From Verrucomicrobiales bacterium (GTDB lineage Bacteria; Verrucomicrobiota; Verrucomicrobiia; Verrucomicrobiales; DEV007), in the NCBI GenBank assembly GCA_029233965.1, contig JARGOP010000042.1, positions 1-39,848 on the forward strand: a DNA stretch of 39,848 nucleotides. The letters are read 5' to 3'. The notes under the pieces are model-generated. The model did no database searches. It saw nothing but the letters and a program-made list of their open reading frames with translations, and was not told where the DNA came from. Every line of letters starts with the position of its first letter. The first letter of the stretch is position 1. Both the position numbers and the translations under genes were made by a program. Positions 22,354-39,848 of this stretch are shown piece after piece.

Positions 22354-23673
22354 TTGAAAGAGAATCCGCGAATCGTCTACATCACTGCCGGTGCCGGGGG
22401 CATGTACTGCGGGAGTTGTATCCGCGACAATGCTCTCGTGACGGCCCTGGAGGAGCTCGGATGGGATGTTTTACTCCTGCCGCTCTACACTCCAATTCGA
22501 GTGGACGAAGAGGATCATTCGATGGATCAGGTTTTCTTCGGCGGGATCAATGTCTACCTTCAGCAGAAAATTCCGCTTTTCCGGCATATTCCCGCGTTTC
22601 TGGATCGGTGGTTGGACAATCCGAAATTGATCCGGCGCGTCTCTTCAAGGGCGATGTCAGTGAGCGCTGCCGATCTCGGCGAGATGACTCTCTCCATGGT
22701 GAAAGGGGAGCACGGCTATCAGCGGAAAGAGGTCGCGCGCCTTGTCCACTGGTTGAAGGAAGTGGTGAAACCTGACTTGATCTGCCTCACAAACCTTCTT
22801 GTCGGCGGCTCCATTCCGGCCTTAAAACGCGAGCTTGATGTGCCAGTGTTAGTCACGATCCAGGGGGATGACGTATTCCTTGATGAGTTGCAGCCGCCCT
22901 GGCATGACAAGGTCCTTGCTGAGATGAAGAAACTCGCCGCGGAGGCGGACGGCTTTTTGACCTTCTCCGCTTTCTATCGGGATCTCATGGCCGGGATCCT
23001 TGAGGTCGACCCGGGGAAATTTCACCTCACCCCGCTGGGGGTTCACGTGGAGGAATTTGATCCCGTCTGGAAAGTGAATCAGCAAAAAACCGCCGGCTCG
23101 ACAATTGGATATTTTGCCCGGCTCTCACCGGAGAAGGGATTTGATCTCATCATCGATGCGTTCATCGAACTGGCTCGCGGGTTGCCCGGGGTAACGCTCA
23201 AGGTCGCCGGGTGGCTTTCGGAGAAGGACCGGGAGTTCTACGCGGAGCAAATTCAAAAAATCGGGGAAGCCGGTCTGGAGAATCGTTTCGAACATGTTGA
23301 AGCCCCGGATGCGGAAGCGAAGTTGAAGTTCTTCAGCGAAGTCGATCTCTTCTGCGTACCGACTCGATTTGAGGAGCCCAAGGGACTCTATGTGCTCGAA
23401 GCGATGGCGTGCGGACTTCCGGTGGTGGCTCCTTCGCATGGACCTTTTCCGGAGCTGATCACTGAAAGTTGCGGGGGATCTCTCTTCGAGGCGAAGAGTG
23501 TTCAGTCATTGCAGGGGGCACTCGTGAAAATGCTGAGTGAGCCTTTGGTGATGAGTCAAGCGGGCGAATCCGGCCGCAAGTGGGTGGAAACTTCAGGAAG
23601 TCGCGAGACGATGGCGAAAGCGACTGCAGAAGTCTTCCGGGATGCTCTCGCGGGAAAGGGTAGACAGGGTTAG
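22354..23673 (+). CDS. Glycosyltransferase family 4 (GT-B fold)
   Basis: A 439-residue retaining glycosyltransferase. The N-terminal GT-B lobe has the sugar-acceptor glycine loop GAGGMYCGSCIRDNAL (about 11-26). The C-terminal lobe has STIGYFARLSPEKGFDLIID and the donor-binding EX7E pair E341-E349 in FEEPKGLYVLEAMACGLP. The CGSC pair near the N-terminus is unusual for GT4 and could bind metal or form a disulfide. No membrane helix or signal peptide is seen, so it acts in the cytoplasm, probably on a nucleotide-sugar donor; the acceptor is unknown. The start is a TTG at 22354; the next in-frame ATG would remove the glycine loop. It stands alone and ends within the palindromic element at 23664-23692. 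Confidence 0.9.
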   Translation: MKENPRIVYITAGAGGMYCGSCIRDNALVTALEELGWDVLLLPLYTPIRVDEEDHSMDQVFFGGINVYLQQKIPLFRHIPAFLDRWLDNPKLIRRVSSRAMSVSAADLGEMTLSMVKGEHGYQRKEVARLVHWLKEVVKPDLICLTNLLVGGSIPALKRELDVPVLVTIQGDDVFLDELQPPWHDKVLAEMKKLAAEADGFLTFSAFYRDLMAGILEVDPGKFHLTPLGVHVEEFDPVWKVNQQKTAGSTIGYFARLSPEKGFDLIIDAFIELARGLPGVTLKVAGWLSEKDREFYAEQIQKIGEAGLENRFEHVEAPDAEAKLKFFSEVDLFCVPTRFEEPKGLYVLEAMACGLPVVAPSHGPFPELITESCGGSLFEAKSVQSLQGALVKMLSEPLVMSQAGESGRKWVETSGSRETMAKATAEVFRDALAGKGRQG

Positions 23674-23692
23674 GTCACGGCCCGAACCCTGT
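23664..23692 (-). repeat. 29-bp palindromic intergenic element, copy 1
   Basis: Arms ACAGGGTT (23664-23671) and AACCCTGT (23685-23692) around a 13-base loop. On the minus strand the loop holds GTGACC at positions 7-12. The element overlaps the stop codon of the glycosyltransferase gene and ends 5 bases before the PAS-AraC stop. A second copy with the same arms, loop length and GTGACC position lies at 39525-39553. It is probably a bidirectional terminator or a dispersed repeat. Confidence 0.7.
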
Positions 23693-23696
23693 TCAG

Positions 23697-24440
23697 TCAA
23701 CTGCCGCGTCGGTATTTCAGGGGGGTGACCCCCATGTGAGCCCGGAAGTGCTGGGTGAAGGAACTCTGATCACAGAATCCATAGTCCAGGGCAATATCAC
23801 TGATCGGTTTGTCACCGGACCGGAGTTCTTCACACGCCGCCTGAACACGGGTTTTAATGAGGAACGTGCGAGGGTTGGTGCCAAAGACTTCACGAAAGCG
23901 GCGGTTGAACTGACGTACTGACATGCCGGTGCGTTTTGCGAGTTCGGTCATGTTCACCGGTTCGTGAAAGTGTTCGCGAATGTAGCTCACGGCGCGGTCC
24001 AACTGTAGGTGGGGCGTTAAAGCCGAGCGCCGACCGGAGTAACTCTGAACCGTCCCCGTCACTCCGATAACCGAACCGTCGCGACCGAAGACAGGAAACT
24101 TGTTCGTGAAATACCAGTCGGGCAGGCCCTGCCGATTAAAAAAGAGTTCAATGATTTTCAACTTTGGGCGCCCTGTCATGAGCACTATCTCGTCGTCTTC
24201 GCGAAACTTCCTGGCGAGTTGATCCGGAAAAAGATCGAAATCGGTTTTTCCGATGACATCGGATTCAGACCGGCAATTGAGCCGCTCCCAGAAGGCGCGG
24301 TTTGCCGAAATAATCTCGAAATTTATATTCTTGGCAAAGAACGAAATTCCCGGAAGCTGGTCGAAGACAACTTCGAAATGAGACAATGGCGACACCTCTT
24401 CCAGAAATTGTGATTTGAGCTGCAGCTTGGTTGAATTCAT
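23697..24440 (-). CDS. AraC-family regulator with N-terminal PAS domain
   Basis: A 247-residue regulator. Residues about 22-130 form a PAS domain (FDQLPGISFFAKNINFEIIS, GKTDFDLFPDQLA, PDWYFTNKFPVFGRDGSVIG). Residues about 145-245 carry two AraC helix-turn-helix units (MTELAKRTGMSVRQFNRRFR and DIALDYGFCDQSSFTQHFRA, then GVTPLKYR). PAS-AraC proteins of this build are frequent in Verrucomicrobia, Planctomycetes and Lentisphaerae next to sugar-use genes. It is divergent from the PL14-like lyase gene with 104 bases between the start codons, so it probably controls that gene and perhaps the FAD oxidoreductase. The PAS ligand is unknown; no haem- or flavin-binding residue is evident. Confidence 0.93.
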   Translation of the reverse strand: MNSTKLQLKSQFLEEVSPLSHFEVVFDQLPGISFFAKNINFEIISANRAFWERLNCRSESDVIGKTDFDLFPDQLARKFREDDEIVLMTGRPKLKIIELFFNRQGLPDWYFTNKFPVFGRDGSVIGVTGTVQSYSGRRSALTPHLQLDRAVSYIREHFHEPVNMTELAKRTGMSVRQFNRRFREVFGTNPRTFLIKTRVQAACEELRSGDKPISDIALDYGFCDQSSFTQHFRAHMGVTPLKYRRGS

Positions 24441-36332: not shown

Positions 36333-36509
36333 GTCAGGAAAAGCGATGAGACGCATGGCAATTCACGGATCGATGCCACGCCGGATCAGTAACCTCAAAA
36401 ACTGGCGCAATCACTGGCCCTGATCACGCTAAAAATGTGTCCGAAGCAAGAGATACACCGATGCGGTCTTGTCTTTCGTAACACTTCCAGAGAGACTCCT
36501 TTTCCGACT

Positions 36510-39503
36510 ATGAAAAATTCCCCCTTGTATGCTCTGGTTTTTTCCGGCGCGATCCTGATGGCTTTCAGTGGCCTTTCCGCCGATGAAACTGCGACACTTT
36601 CGCCAAAGTGGCTGTGGACCTCAAACAAGCCGAAGTCGAACGAGACCGCCTTTTTCCGAAAAGAATTCGAAGTGCCTGCCACCGTGACGAGGGTCCTGCT
36701 TGTCGCGGCCGGGGATAACAGCATCAATGTCAATGTGAACGGCGCTCCGCGTCCATTCTCCTCGACGGACTGGGCGAAGCCTCTCGTCGAAGATATTTCA
36801 GATCAGGTGAAGCCCGGGGAAAAGCTTCTCCTGGGTGCTGCCACAAAGAACGAGGGCGGCATCGCCGGAGCTTTTGTGCTCGTGGAGTTCACCCACGAAG
36901 ACGGCTCGAAGTCCCGCCTCGTATCCGATGAGACCTGGCTCGCGAGCAGTCAGCCGCAGAAGAACTGGTTCAAGCCGGAATTCAAAACGAATCAGGCGTG
37001 GAAAGCTCCGGTAGTCATCAAGGAGCTGGGAGCGGCCCCCTGGAACAGGGTTTCTGAAGCTCTCCTTGCCGACCTCCTCGACATTCGGGTGCCACAGGCG
37101 ACCCCGGTCGAAGATATCAATCTCGTCGAAGGGTTCAAGGCGGAACTCCTCTACTCCGTGCCGAAGTCCGATCAGGGGTCCTGGGTTGCGATGACGATCG
37201 ACGACCGCGAGCGGCTGATTGTCTCTGATCAATACGGGGCACTGTATCGCATCAGGATCCCGGCTCCCGGCAAAACGGTTTCAGAAAATGATGTCGAAAA
37301 GATCGAGGTCGATATCGGCGGGGCACAGGGACTTCTTTATGCGTTTGATAGTCTCTATGCCGTCCTGAATACCGCCGAGCACGGAGGGCGCGGACTCTAT
37401 CGCATCACCGACAGCGACGGGGATGATCAGTTCGACAAAAAAGAGCAGCTTCGTAAATTTGACGACGTGGGGGGTGAACACGGGCCTCACGCGGTTGTGC
37501 TCAGTCCGGATGGTAAATCCCTCTATGTGGTCGTTGGAAACCAGACCCCGGTGACCGAAGTCGACTCTTCGCGCATTCCGCAGATCTGGGGGGAGGACCT
37601 CCTTCTTGAACGGCCGATCGGGAGAGGGTTCATGAAAGGGACTCTCGCTCCCGGGGGATGGGTCGCGCGGACAGATCCCGACGGGAAAAGCTGGGAGCTC
37701 ATTGCCACCGGCTTCCGCAACCAGTACGACGTCGCCTTCAACCAGAACGGGGACCTCTTCACCTACGATGCGGATATGGAGTGGGACATCAACACTCCGT
37801 GGTATCGCCCGACTCGCATCAATCACATCACGAGCGGCGCCGAGTTCGGATGGCGTAGCGGGGGAGGGAAGTGGCCTGCCTACTATGCGGACAGTCTTCC
37901 CGCCGTGGTCGATATCGGGCCGGGGTCACCGACCGGAGTCGCTTTCGGAACCGGGGCGAAATTTCCTGCCAAATACCAAAAGGCGTTTTACGCGGCTGAC
38001 TGGAGCTACGGAAAACTCTATGCCGTGCACATGGAGCCGGACGGTTCCTCCTACAAAGCAACCTTCGAGGAATTCATGAGCGCACAGCCGCTTCCTCTCA
38101 CCGATCTTCTCGTGAATCCGGAAGACGGGGCGATGTACATCGCGATCGGAGGACGCCGCGTTCAGTCCGGACTCTATCGGGTGACCTACACGGGTGAAGA
38201 GTCGACCGCGCCGGCAGCGAAACCGGAGCCCAACGAGCTGCACCGGCTCCGCACTGAGCTGGAATCCTATCATTCACCGAATCCGAAGGCGGTGGAAGCA
38301 GTCTGGTCTTCGCTCGGACACGAAGATCGCTACATTCGCTACGCAGCCCGCATTGCGCTGGAGCATCAGCCGGTTGCGGAGTGGAAAGAGAGAGCACTCG
38401 AGGAGAAAGATCCGGAGACTCTCATCAGCGCGATGATCGCGCTTGCCCGATGTGGTGAGCCGGAGGTTCAGGACAGCCTGATCGCTTCGCTCAATGGAAT
38501 TGAAATGGCCGAATTGAGTGTCCGTCAAAAGCTGGATCTCGTTCGTGCTTACAGCCTTGCCTTTACCCGCATGGGAGAAGGGACTGCGGAGACACGTGAG
38601 TCGCTGGCGAATTCATGGATGTCCCGCATGCCTTTTGCGAGTCCGGCCCTGAACATCGAAGTGCTTCAGCTTGCGGTCTACCTCGAGCATCCGAAAGCCG
38701 CTGAGGTCGGCATTGATTTGCTCAAGTCAGCTCCTTCCCAGGAGGAGCAGATGAGTTATGCAAAGTCACTGCGTCATCTCAAGGGGGGCTGGAATCCGGA
38801 ACTTCGAAAAGACTTCTTCGAGTGGTTCACGAGAGCCAAAGCCTACAAAGGCGGCCCCAGTTTTTCGCTGTTCATCGAAAACATGAAGAAGACGGCGCTG
38901 GAGAATACTCCGGAAGATCAGAAGCTCGCCCTGAAAGAGACGATCGAAGCTGAACCGCCGACGGAGCAACTCTTCACGGCAGAGCCCCGCTCCTTCGTGA
39001 AAAACTGGACGGTGAGTGATTTTGACGGGGTCATCAATGTCGGGCTCGAAGGCAATCGCGATTTCACCAACGGACGGAAAATGTTCGGCGCGGCAACTTG
39101 TTTTGCCTGTCACCGTTTCAATCAGGAGGGCGGATCGCTCGGACCCGACCTCACGAGCGTTGCCGGCAAGTTCAGCCCGCGCGACCTCCTCGAGTCGATC
39201 ATCGAGCCAAACAAGGAAATTTCCGACCAGTATGGTCAGATGATTTTTGAAATGAAGGACGGCAGCATCGTCATGGGCCGGATCATGAATCTGAGCGGTG
39301 ATTCGGTCAGGGTGAATACCAATATGATGGATCCGAACCAGATCGTTTCCGTTGACCGGAAACAGCTTAAGTCGATGAAGGATTCCCCAATGAGCATGAT
39401 GCCTCCCGGATTGATCAACAGCCTTTCCGAAGAGGACGTTCTCGACCTTCTTGCCTATCTTCTCTCACACGGTGATCCCGAGGATCCCATGTTTGCCGAG
39501 TGA
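36510..39503 (+). CDS. Second Piru_Ver-type haem-binding protein with N-terminal beta-sandwich
   Basis: About 997 residues from ATG 36510, chosen because it starts a signal peptide (MKNSPLYALVFSGAILMAFSG); the ORF extends 25 residues further but without a signal. Residues about 25-175 resemble a galactose-binding-like sandwich (WLWTSNKPKSNETAFFRKEF, NVNVNGAPRPF). The propeller follows (about 200-560: GLYRITDSDGDDQFDKKEQL, FRNQYDVAFNQNGDLFTYDA, DMEWDINTPWYRPTRINH), then helical repeats (about 580-820) and a haem c domain with C864-F-A-C867-H868 and SMMPPGLINSLSEED as likely axial-Met loop. It is probably periplasmic and redox-active. It shares a 177-base divergent promoter region with the gene ending at 36332. 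The N-terminal sandwich distinguishes it from its neighbour and may bind sugar. Confidence 0.9.
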   Translation: MKNSPLYALVFSGAILMAFSGLSADETATLSPKWLWTSNKPKSNETAFFRKEFEVPATVTRVLLVAAGDNSINVNVNGAPRPFSSTDWAKPLVEDISDQVKPGEKLLLGAATKNEGGIAGAFVLVEFTHEDGSKSRLVSDETWLASSQPQKNWFKPEFKTNQAWKAPVVIKELGAAPWNRVSEALLADLLDIRVPQATPVEDINLVEGFKAELLYSVPKSDQGSWVAMTIDDRERLIVSDQYGALYRIRIPAPGKTVSENDVEKIEVDIGGAQGLLYAFDSLYAVLNTAEHGGRGLYRITDSDGDDQFDKKEQLRKFDDVGGEHGPHAVVLSPDGKSLYVVVGNQTPVTEVDSSRIPQIWGEDLLLERPIGRGFMKGTLAPGGWVARTDPDGKSWELIATGFRNQYDVAFNQNGDLFTYDADMEWDINTPWYRPTRINHITSGAEFGWRSGGGKWPAYYADSLPAVVDIGPGSPTGVAFGTGAKFPAKYQKAFYAADWSYGKLYAVHMEPDGSSYKATFEEFMSAQPLPLTDLLVNPEDGAMYIAIGGRRVQSGLYRVTYTGEESTAPAAKPEPNELHRLRTELESYHSPNPKAVEAVWSSLGHEDRYIRYAARIALEHQPVAEWKERALEEKDPETLISAMIALARCGEPEVQDSLIASLNGIEMAELSVRQKLDLVRAYSLAFTRMGEGTAETRESLANSWMSRMPFASPALNIEVLQLAVYLEHPKAAEVGIDLLKSAPSQEEQMSYAKSLRHLKGGWNPELRKDFFEWFTRAKAYKGGPSFSLFIENMKKTALENTPEDQKLALKETIEAEPPTEQLFTAEPRSFVKNWTVSDFDGVINVGLEGNRDFTNGRKMFGAATCFACHRFNQEGGSLGPDLTSVAGKFSPRDLLESIIEPNKEISDQYGQMIFEMKDGSIVMGRIMNLSGDSVRVNTNMMDPNQIVSVDRKQLKSMKDSPMSMMPPGLINSLSEEDVLDLLAYLLSHGDPEDPMFAE

Positions 39504-39524
39504 AGAAGGAGACTGCCGGATTCA

Positions 39525-39553
39525 ACAGGGTTGTTTCAGTGACCCAACCCTGT
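39525..39553 (+). repeat. 29-bp palindromic intergenic element, copy 2
   Basis: Arms ACAGGGTT (39525-39532) and AACCCTGT (39546-39553) around a 13-base loop with GTGACC at loop positions 7-12. It lies in the gap between two convergent genes, 21 bases after the haem-protein stop. The other copy is at 23664-23692 in the opposite orientation. Confidence 0.7.
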
Positions 39554-39630
39554 CCGGCGTCTACGCGACGGCTTTCGACCAGCGTCGAGGTTTCAGGCTT
39601 CCGGAAGTTGCTGTCGGTGAAGCTGAACTC

Positions 39631-39848
39631 TCAGTTGGCGGGGAAAATTACATCAACTCTGCGGAGTTCCTCCGGAGTGCCGCCCCGTCGCGGCGGCCTG
39701 GGTTTCGCTGAAGGACACGATCGAAATCCGGTCGGCTGAAATTCCCTGCTTGAGGAGATAGTCCTTCACCATCTCACATCGGGCCTGCGCAAGTGAAGTG
39801 GCCCCGCTTTTCGGAGCCAAGGGCGAGATGAAGGATTGAAGCTGTCGT
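39631..39848 (-). CDS. OmpA-family C-terminal domain, partial at window edge, apparent frameshift
   Basis: The minus strand from 39848 reads into an OmpA-like peptidoglycan-binding domain: SLAQARCEMVKDYLLKQG and ISADRISIVSFSE match the classical helix and the following strand. This frame then runs to a premature TGA at 39653-39655. The adjacent frame supplies the expected end, TPEELRRVDVIFPAN with its stop at 39631-39633, where OmpA proteins normally have an NRRVDV-like strand. One inserted or lost base within about 39665-39700 would explain both. The 5' part lies outside the window. It converges on the haem protein gene at 39503, with the palindromic repeat between them. This is either a real pseudogene or a sequencing error. 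Confidence 0.65.

Follow-up and report, generated by a model that had tools for sequence, protein, structure and literature searches.

Arrays of a 22-bp DNA unit in verrucomicrobial genomes as candidate chromosome-organising sites

Dispersed short sites are used by several chromosome- or division-related DNA-binding proteins, such as MatP (at matS), SlmA, and Noc, and matS is confined to the Ter region. The attC site of integrons has an inverted arrangement and folds as a single-strand hairpin. The DNA uptake sequences of Haemophilus and Neisseria occur at about one motif per kb. According to PMC12284271, the SegB sites of the Sulfolobales are palindromic, scattered over the chromosome, bound by an RHH protein, and read as organising rather than regulatory; 39 ChIP peaks with a 13-bp motif are given, mostly intragenic and located mainly near segAB and in one compartment. 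The parS sites of pSM19035, bound by Omega (ParB-pSM), are described in PMC9499535 as non-palindromic 7-bp heptads in direct or inverted order, each taking one dimer, with pairs being bound tightly; the heptads are contiguous, with 7-10 per site at six plasmid sites. REP/BIME elements with RAYT transposases are dispersed extragenic palindromes of 20-40 bp that are sometimes clustered and have a GTAG or CGTC tag (PMC3733652). Karlin et al. claimed even spacing of DNA uptake sequences, according to PMC1939737, whose authors consider these sequences insufficiently even for a role in compaction.

The window, i.e., the whole stretch of DNA that was analysed, comprises 39,848 nucleotides of contig JARGOP010000042.1 from a Verrucomicrobiales genome (G000). 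Two 29-bp copies of an element whose 8-base arms match exactly around a 13-base loop, reported in a preliminary description, were confirmed at 23664-23692 and 39525-39553. These were the only matches in the window at ≤3 mismatches; shuffled windows gave a mean of 0.08 matches, and two matches were obtained in 1 of 100 shuffles. Each copy lies in an array of two 22-bp units, and the features are as follows.

22354-23673, plus strand: group 1 glycosyltransferase (PF00534, domain match), neighbour outside the element
23657-23699, no strand assigned: array 1, two 22-bp units in inverted order, about 43 bp including the outer half-arms (extent from the 144-context profile)
23664-23670, plus strand: heptamer ACAGGGT of unit 1 of array 1, encoding the final glycosyltransferase codons
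23686-23692, minus strand (the plus strand reads ACCCTGT): heptamer ACAGGGT of unit 2 of array 1, 22 bp from unit 1
23697-24440, minus strand: PAS and AraC-type HTH regulator (PF08448, PF12833, domain match), neighbour outside the element
36435-39503, plus strand: large protein with a C-terminal cytochrome c domain (PF00034), upstream of array 2
39518-39560, no strand assigned: array 2, two inverted 22-bp units, 15.9 kb away from array 1
39525-39531, plus strand: heptamer ACAGGGT of unit 1 of array 2
39547-39553, minus strand: heptamer ACAGGGT of unit 2 of array 2
39653-39847, minus strand: open frame running off the window end, downstream of array 2, OmpA-like by eye

Copy 1 overlaps the glycosyltransferase stop codon (23671-23673). 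The arrays scored 41.0 (array 1) and 43.2 (array 2) in a 43-bp scan, and the unit model found these same two arrays in the window. The minus-strand frame downstream places array 2 between convergent gene ends, so that both copies have the convergent setting described for them; this setting is not general, since 8 of 80 arrays in a 2.0-Mb sample are convergent. A GTGACC box had been taken as fixed. It occupies loop positions 7-12 in both copies, lying on the minus strand in copy 1 and on the plus strand in copy 2, and is present in 2 of the 26 loops of exact copies in the genome, so there is no fixed box and the argument built on a conserved off-centre box reflects a coincidence of two copies. 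No known RNA family was matched in the whole window at the Rfam gathering thresholds.

The genome search proposed in the preliminary description, using the arms with a 13-base spacer, returned 26 exact copies in 4.83 Mb and none for the reversed-pattern control, and the window copies are therefore not the only two. At ≤3 mismatches, there were 147 matches vs 8 for the control. The spacer is fixed: allowing 0-30 bases returned the same 26 exact copies, all with 13, and in 808 kb of this genome, searched at ≤2 mismatches, a spacer of 13 gave 21 matches, compared with 0-2 for any other length in the same range. Random loop content, which had been considered, holds for most loop bases, but TCA and TGA are constant, and in the profile the conserved loop feature is a near-symmetric TCA-n-TGA. 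Across 144 contexts from many species, conserved positions reach 7 bases past each arm, giving about 43 bp, with the profile summarised as about CGAnYCA-ACAGGGTT-RGKTCRnYGAMCY-AACCCTGT-TGRnTCG. High-scoring sites with one arm reversed were seen in the 43-bp scan, and counting of heptamer pairs in all orientations also found the direct order, again in 22-bp register, in runs of 2, 3, and 4. Turned arms and direct pairs in this register make the unit a heptamer flanked by symmetric half-arms. What repeats, two to four times in strict 22-bp register, is a module of 22 bp with the approximate sequence GAnYCA-[ACAGGGT]-TRRKTC, and the palindrome is its inverted two-unit case.

Whole genomes contained 45 (G000), 298 (G141), 183 (G009), and 38 (G012) direct pairs, counts in which one three-unit array can appear twice. 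The orientation of 80 unit pairs from G000 and G012 was non-random, with 51 inward, 28 direct, and 1 outward. The lone heptamer was near base-count expectation (102 in 808 kb vs about 98, assuming uniform bases). In two-unit arrays pooled over species, the bases on either side of the dyad match each other less often than expected (37 of 141 vs 62.9, z -5.1); the array centre thus prefers an asymmetric form, e.g., TCATCGA, which gives the inter-heptamer segment its own polarity. In G010, which has 1 exact copy, several sites show an arm variant that is shared by their two arms (AGAGGGTT...AACCCTCT and AAAGGGTT...AACCCTTT), possibly through drift of the recognised heptamer.

Of 386 genomes of the order, 34 had the exact 16-base pattern. 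These 34, from an uncultured group of bacteria, belong to three genera within a single family (28/33 in the window's genus, 4/4 in the second, and 2/2 in the third), and the pattern was absent from 35 other family members and 312 genomes outside the family. A pattern for the inter-heptamer segment, searched in 74 family genomes of 18 genera, was found in the same three genera only, with no diverged version in a sister genus. Five of the 33 same-genus genomes are without an exact copy, including one 95% and one 91% complete; G011 had 23 vs 8 matches at ≤3 mismatches, though it has no exact copy. The top count among the 386 genomes, 164 exact inverted copies, came from a genome of about 5 Mb in the third genus (G163). 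At least 114 named matches were obtained in genome_contigs, and among the matches listed all titles are verrucomicrobial. In viral_contigs, there were 10 exact matches, of which 7 are without unit flanks and look like chance and 3 are true arrays scoring 45-48 (L131:4684, L135:9455, and L130, which has the same sequence as L135 around the match). Among ten viral-contig proteins scanned were a tape-measure protein on L131 and, on L135, an integrase, an N6/N4 methylase, and a helicase. Such genes point to carriage of arrays by phages or prophages, the hosts of which are probably these bacteria. A literature search that included the motif letters and was judged from titles brought up, among the matches listed, no recognised description of the element.

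The number of units is largely species-typical. By the unit model, two units were found in 33/33 arrays of G000 and 47/47 of G012. Named loci, counted without arrays ≤30 bp from a sequence end, gave two units in JABDJT (43/43), CALAHF (14/14), JARGOD (13/13), JARGPJ (7/7; apparently the same genome as G012), and JARGNG (6/6). Three units were found in 8/8 scored arrays from G141 stretches (7/9 inner arrays under a second rule set) and in 3/4 arrays from G009 stretches, and JAKMGR has 3 three-unit arrays and 1 four-unit array. Mixed numbers were found at the named loci of JAHDCN (5 two-unit, 6 three-unit) and JAKSBG (2 and 4), apparently the two species that the G141 and G009 stretches represent, and of JAOFXR (2 two-unit, 2 four-unit). 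At one orthologous place, a gap between leuB-like and pyrF-like genes (own reading of the proteins), two, three, and four units occur across species. Orientation shares at the named loci are biased because these loci were picked by the inverted-pair pattern; the G141, G009, and G125 stretches were placed around listed direct pairs.

Spacing and gene context were analysed in 2.00 Mb, made up of 808 kb of G000 in eight contigs, contig C13 of G012, and 480 kb of G012 contig C18. The G000 contigs were taken because they hold exact copies, and nothing was chosen within them; C42 was covered to 100,000 of 104,767 bases and C23 to 120,000 of 123,981. Using a unit-pair model trained on other species and a score of ≥18, 80 arrays were found, with 0 in the reversed sequence and 0.3 on average at other periods. 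The arrays are evenly spaced in both genomes, which are both two-unit species. G012 had 47 arrays in 1.195 Mb (mean distance 25.4 kb) and G000 had 33 in 0.808 Mb (24.5 kb), and extrapolation from the sampled density gives 180-200 arrays per chromosome. None of the 70 pooled gaps was <5 kb vs 14.3 expected (8.2 for G012 and 5.8 for G000). The CV of gaps was 0.48 in G012 vs 0.97 for random places and 0.43 in G000 vs 0.90, with 0 of 10,000 simulations as low, and 0.47 pooled vs 0.98. The largest gap was 54.7 kb in G012 vs 106.6 kb expected and 46.0 kb in G000 vs 64.0 kb (P 0.10). With random intergenic regions as the null, the CV and short-gap results were unchanged and the largest gap of G000 was unremarkable (P 0.13). 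Four pooled score thresholds from 14 to 30 agreed; at 14, there was 1 gap <5 kb vs 15.9 expected. Exact-heptamer pairs on 7 of the 20 G012 contigs, those of inferable length (3.16 Mb of the 4.5-Mb genome), gave 63 arrays with 2 gaps <10 kb vs 11.1 expected, at a similar density on all seven large contigs (1.73-2.59 arrays per 100 kb). Arrays lie under both GC-skew signs on C18. This is the spacing expected of a site that serves a neighbourhood of tens of kilobases, and also of an insertion with target immunity; even spacing by itself is not specific, as the case of the DNA uptake sequences illustrates.

Arrays are often kept at orthologous places. In 25 orthologous comparisons into G000 or G012, 17 kept the array, 2 had a degenerate trace, and 6 had none, compared with 42 of 2,000 random intervals of the same lengths that hold an array; four kept pairs were counted from both sides, and two G000 sites were each matched by two other species. 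Kept sites are at 70-80% nucleotide identity, and the flanking intergenic sequence is diverged by eye. A syntenic block shared by C30 of G000 and C13 of G012 has three arrays in the same order in both genomes; G012 has a degenerate copy of a fourth and, close by, one further array that is present only there. The gene gap of array 1 is also occupied in three relatives, by a two-unit array in each of G006 and G008 and by a run of three direct units in G141. Among 15 relatives, the array 1 site has an array in 3, a decayed trace in 2 (G019 and G101), and none in 10; among the 9 with the glycosyltransferase still upstream, the numbers are 3, 2, and 4. In one pair of loci (L072:4200-4420 and L089:5110-5330), about 160-200 bp around the array is near-identical by eye in a 7-kb alignment of two species that is 77% identical, from either recent exchange or strong local constraint.

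The constraint is of the type expected for double-stranded DNA. When 141 two-unit elements were compared with shuffles stratified by species, none of the variable positions covaried with its mirror position above expectation (lowest P 0.14); the seven heptamer pairs carry no information in this test because the elements were selected for an invariant heptamer. Two positions of the within-unit arm pairs paired less than expected (z -2.8 and -3.0). An RNA hairpin had been suggested by covariation in pooled species (e.g., z 6.6 at loop position 3), and this signal, which was gone after stratification, was taken for species dialects. The absence of hairpin-type covariation within species places the constraint on double-stranded DNA. 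Three readings had been offered at the outset, a protein-binding site, an RNA processing site, and a small mobile repeat. RNA processing fits poorly because direct arrays are incapable of forming the long hairpin and because the strand that carries the heptamer does not follow the direction of transcription in any consistent way. A protein-binding site on double-stranded DNA fits best, given the rigid 22-bp geometry, the occurrence of the heptamer either way round, the lack of covariation, and the orthologous retention. Mobility may be the origin, since convergent and divergent gaps that host arrays are of ordinary length once the array is removed, and would be compatible with even spacing only with target immunity.

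Even spacing, the largely fixed unit number, the double-stranded DNA constraint, and orthologous retention together favour a nucleoprotein anchor that acts chromosome-wide. We infer protein binding, the dimer state, and a role in chromosome organisation from these patterns, and we give about an even chance to the reading that the element is a cooperative array for a putative sequence-specific DNA-binding protein, serving as a chromosome-organising anchor or domain boundary. Each 22-bp unit, with ACAGGGT inside symmetric half-arms (GA...TC), would hold one dimer, and since 22 bp is about two helical turns, adjacent units would lie on one face of the DNA. A nucleoprotein complex would comprise two such units, in some species three or four, and its size would be set largely by the species. 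The 180-200 complexes, about 25 kb apart and almost never <5 kb apart, would most likely be anchors or domain boundaries that organise the nucleoid rather than promoter operators or terminators. More tentatively, and going by sequence patterns, the arrays may form a sequence-encoded chromosome ruler, in which a lineage-specific putative protein on arrays of species-set unit number, kept at intervals of about 25 kb by selection, would set the size of domains or loops. Loss of a site offset by a nearby site was seen in one example, and arrays also occur on some phage-like contigs. The question at stake is whether bacterial chromosome domains are fixed by sequence at a set interval or merely arise from transcription and random supercoil barriers. 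An array family that is even in two species, often orthologously kept, and largely species-specific in unit number gives a direct handle on this question via the protein and Hi-C maps. If the structural reading is wrong, the even spacing could reveal a new immunity or drive mechanism.

The alternative that survives best, although we regard it as unlikely, is that the arrays are an old insertion set of small mobile repeats with target immunity, the copies being mutually exclusive over about 5-10 kb. The even spacing with a near-absence of gaps <5 kb is the pattern of target immunity. Gene context, for which genes were called with a simple caller of our own, is also partly favourable. The 80 arrays lie in tandem gaps (37), inside predicted genes (23), in divergent gaps (10), in convergent gaps (8), and at contig edges (2); they avoid genes, as the coding share of the sample is about 91%, and divergent gaps are somewhat scarce in one count and hardly so in this sample. 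Random origin in existing sequence should favour longer gaps. With the array subtracted, convergent and divergent hosting gaps have the ordinary per-gap lengths, as for an inserted element, and tandem hosting gaps are longer than ordinary tandem gaps and shorter than length-weighted ones. Against mobility, the variable positions differ among copies, with no near-identical families seen in the copy lists, and arrays are retained orthologously while their flanks have diverged, with differing unit numbers at orthologous places. Among 375 flanking proteins, the recurrent clusters (sulfatases, cytochrome-bearing proteins, and oxidoreductases, with scattered housekeeping genes) include none that is transposase-like, and no regulon, mobile-gene neighbour, or common pathway was seen (own reading). 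An array was found at 1 of 20 Y1-transposase loci (L140-L159), and Y1 counts do not track copy number: G009 has 0 Y1 matches and many arrays, and G010 has 17 matches and 1 exact copy. The window itself encodes a Y1 (IS200/IS605-type) transposase domain at 188-544 on the plus strand (E 2.3e-34), in a 2-kb locus without an array.

A gene-end element, either a bidirectional terminator or a protein roadblock or insulator between genes, is quite unlikely. Arrays do come soon after stop codons, at a median of 27 bp in tandem gaps and 16 bp in convergent gaps (207 arrays, mostly selected by the inverted-pair pattern). Terminator-like hits were also commoner in array-bearing than in other gaps, with 7/15 vs 5/94 in convergent gaps <40 bp and 17/36 vs 21/255 in tandem gaps of 40-100 bp, but this excess is not clean because the terminator scan can score the palindromes of the array's own units. 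The mean T share at positions 8-17 after the element was 0.17-0.27 in nine of the 11 species groups, G000 among them with 0.25, the exceptions being JABDJT (0.35, with T 0.48-0.57 at positions 8-11) and CALAHF (0.34, with T 0.78 at position 8 only). The T-tract suggests that the element may double as a terminator in JABDJT. Ten of the 11 groups, G000 included, have no T-run at positions 8-11 comparable to the T-tract of an intrinsic (rho-independent) terminator, and the 141 elements gave no sign of a stem kept by compensatory change. JABDJT loci (e.g., L097), and partly those of CALAHF, have a dialect GGTTC...GAACC between the heptamers. Direct arrays are without a long hairpin, 23 of the 80 arrays are inside predicted genes, and termination leaves the even 25-kb spacing unexplained. 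In G000 and G012, 10 of 12 direct arrays between tandem genes have ACAGGGT against transcription and 8 of 11 inside genes have it with the gene, and a larger mixed set between tandem genes had 6 co-oriented and 10 anti. A strand-specific RNA function was rejected, this bias being weak, unexplained, and not in one direction. Replication polarity was rejected as well, as on C13, a contig with a single skew sign over its whole length, 6 direct arrays point one way and 5 the other, with no GC-skew relation.

DNA uptake or another self-recognition signal, built up by biased uptake and recombination, is very unlikely. The density of one array per 25 kb compares with near one motif per kb for uptake sequences, a set unit number would be needed, and the lone heptamer is near chance. 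In its favour, uptake sequences are dispersed in both orientations, with about 10% as inverted repeats, and have been called evenly spaced (PMC1939737). Operators of a global transcription factor are highly improbable: dyad-like double-stranded DNA sites in cooperative tandem arrangement are typical of operators, but divergent promoters are not enriched (10 of 80 arrays, or 10 of 55 intergenic ones vs 251 of 1,135 intergenic regions ≥20 bp), the genes that recur beside arrays belong to paralogue-rich families or are housekeeping genes of various kinds, without a common pathway (own reading), and even spacing is not expected.

Compared with the nearest precedents, the element cannot be assigned to any one family. 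The inverted hairpin arrangement of attC does not describe it, as direct pairs are common (e.g., 298 in G141) and there is no covariation. Unlike matS, the arrays are not confined to a Ter region, their density being similar on seven G012 contigs, and to our knowledge the site sequences of matS, SlmA, and Noc differ from the array unit. The arrays resemble uptake sequences in being short, dispersed, in both orientations, and evenly spaced (a disputed claim for uptake sequences), and differ in having one array per 24.5-25.4 kb with a set unit number vs a much denser single motif. With REP/BIME elements, they share dispersed short palindromes and clustering, but the GTAG or CGTC end tag is absent from the 144-context profile (flank consensus CGAnYCA), no hairpin constraint or Y1 link was seen, and direct arrangements occur. 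By function, the nearest precedent would be the scattered organising sites of the SegB type, and by architecture the heptads of pSM19035 parS. Like SegB sites, the arrays are scattered palindromic double-stranded DNA sites with a chromosome-organising interpretation; unlike them, they number about 200, are evenly spaced, are built of 22-bp units, lie mostly between genes, and are known here from sequence. Like the heptad array of an Omega-type RHH protein, they combine direct and inverted heptamers (51 inward, 28 direct, 1 outward). Unlike in that array, their heptamers recur every 22 bp with 15 bp between them, lie within extra symmetric arms, and form sites of 2-4 units distributed chromosome-wide.
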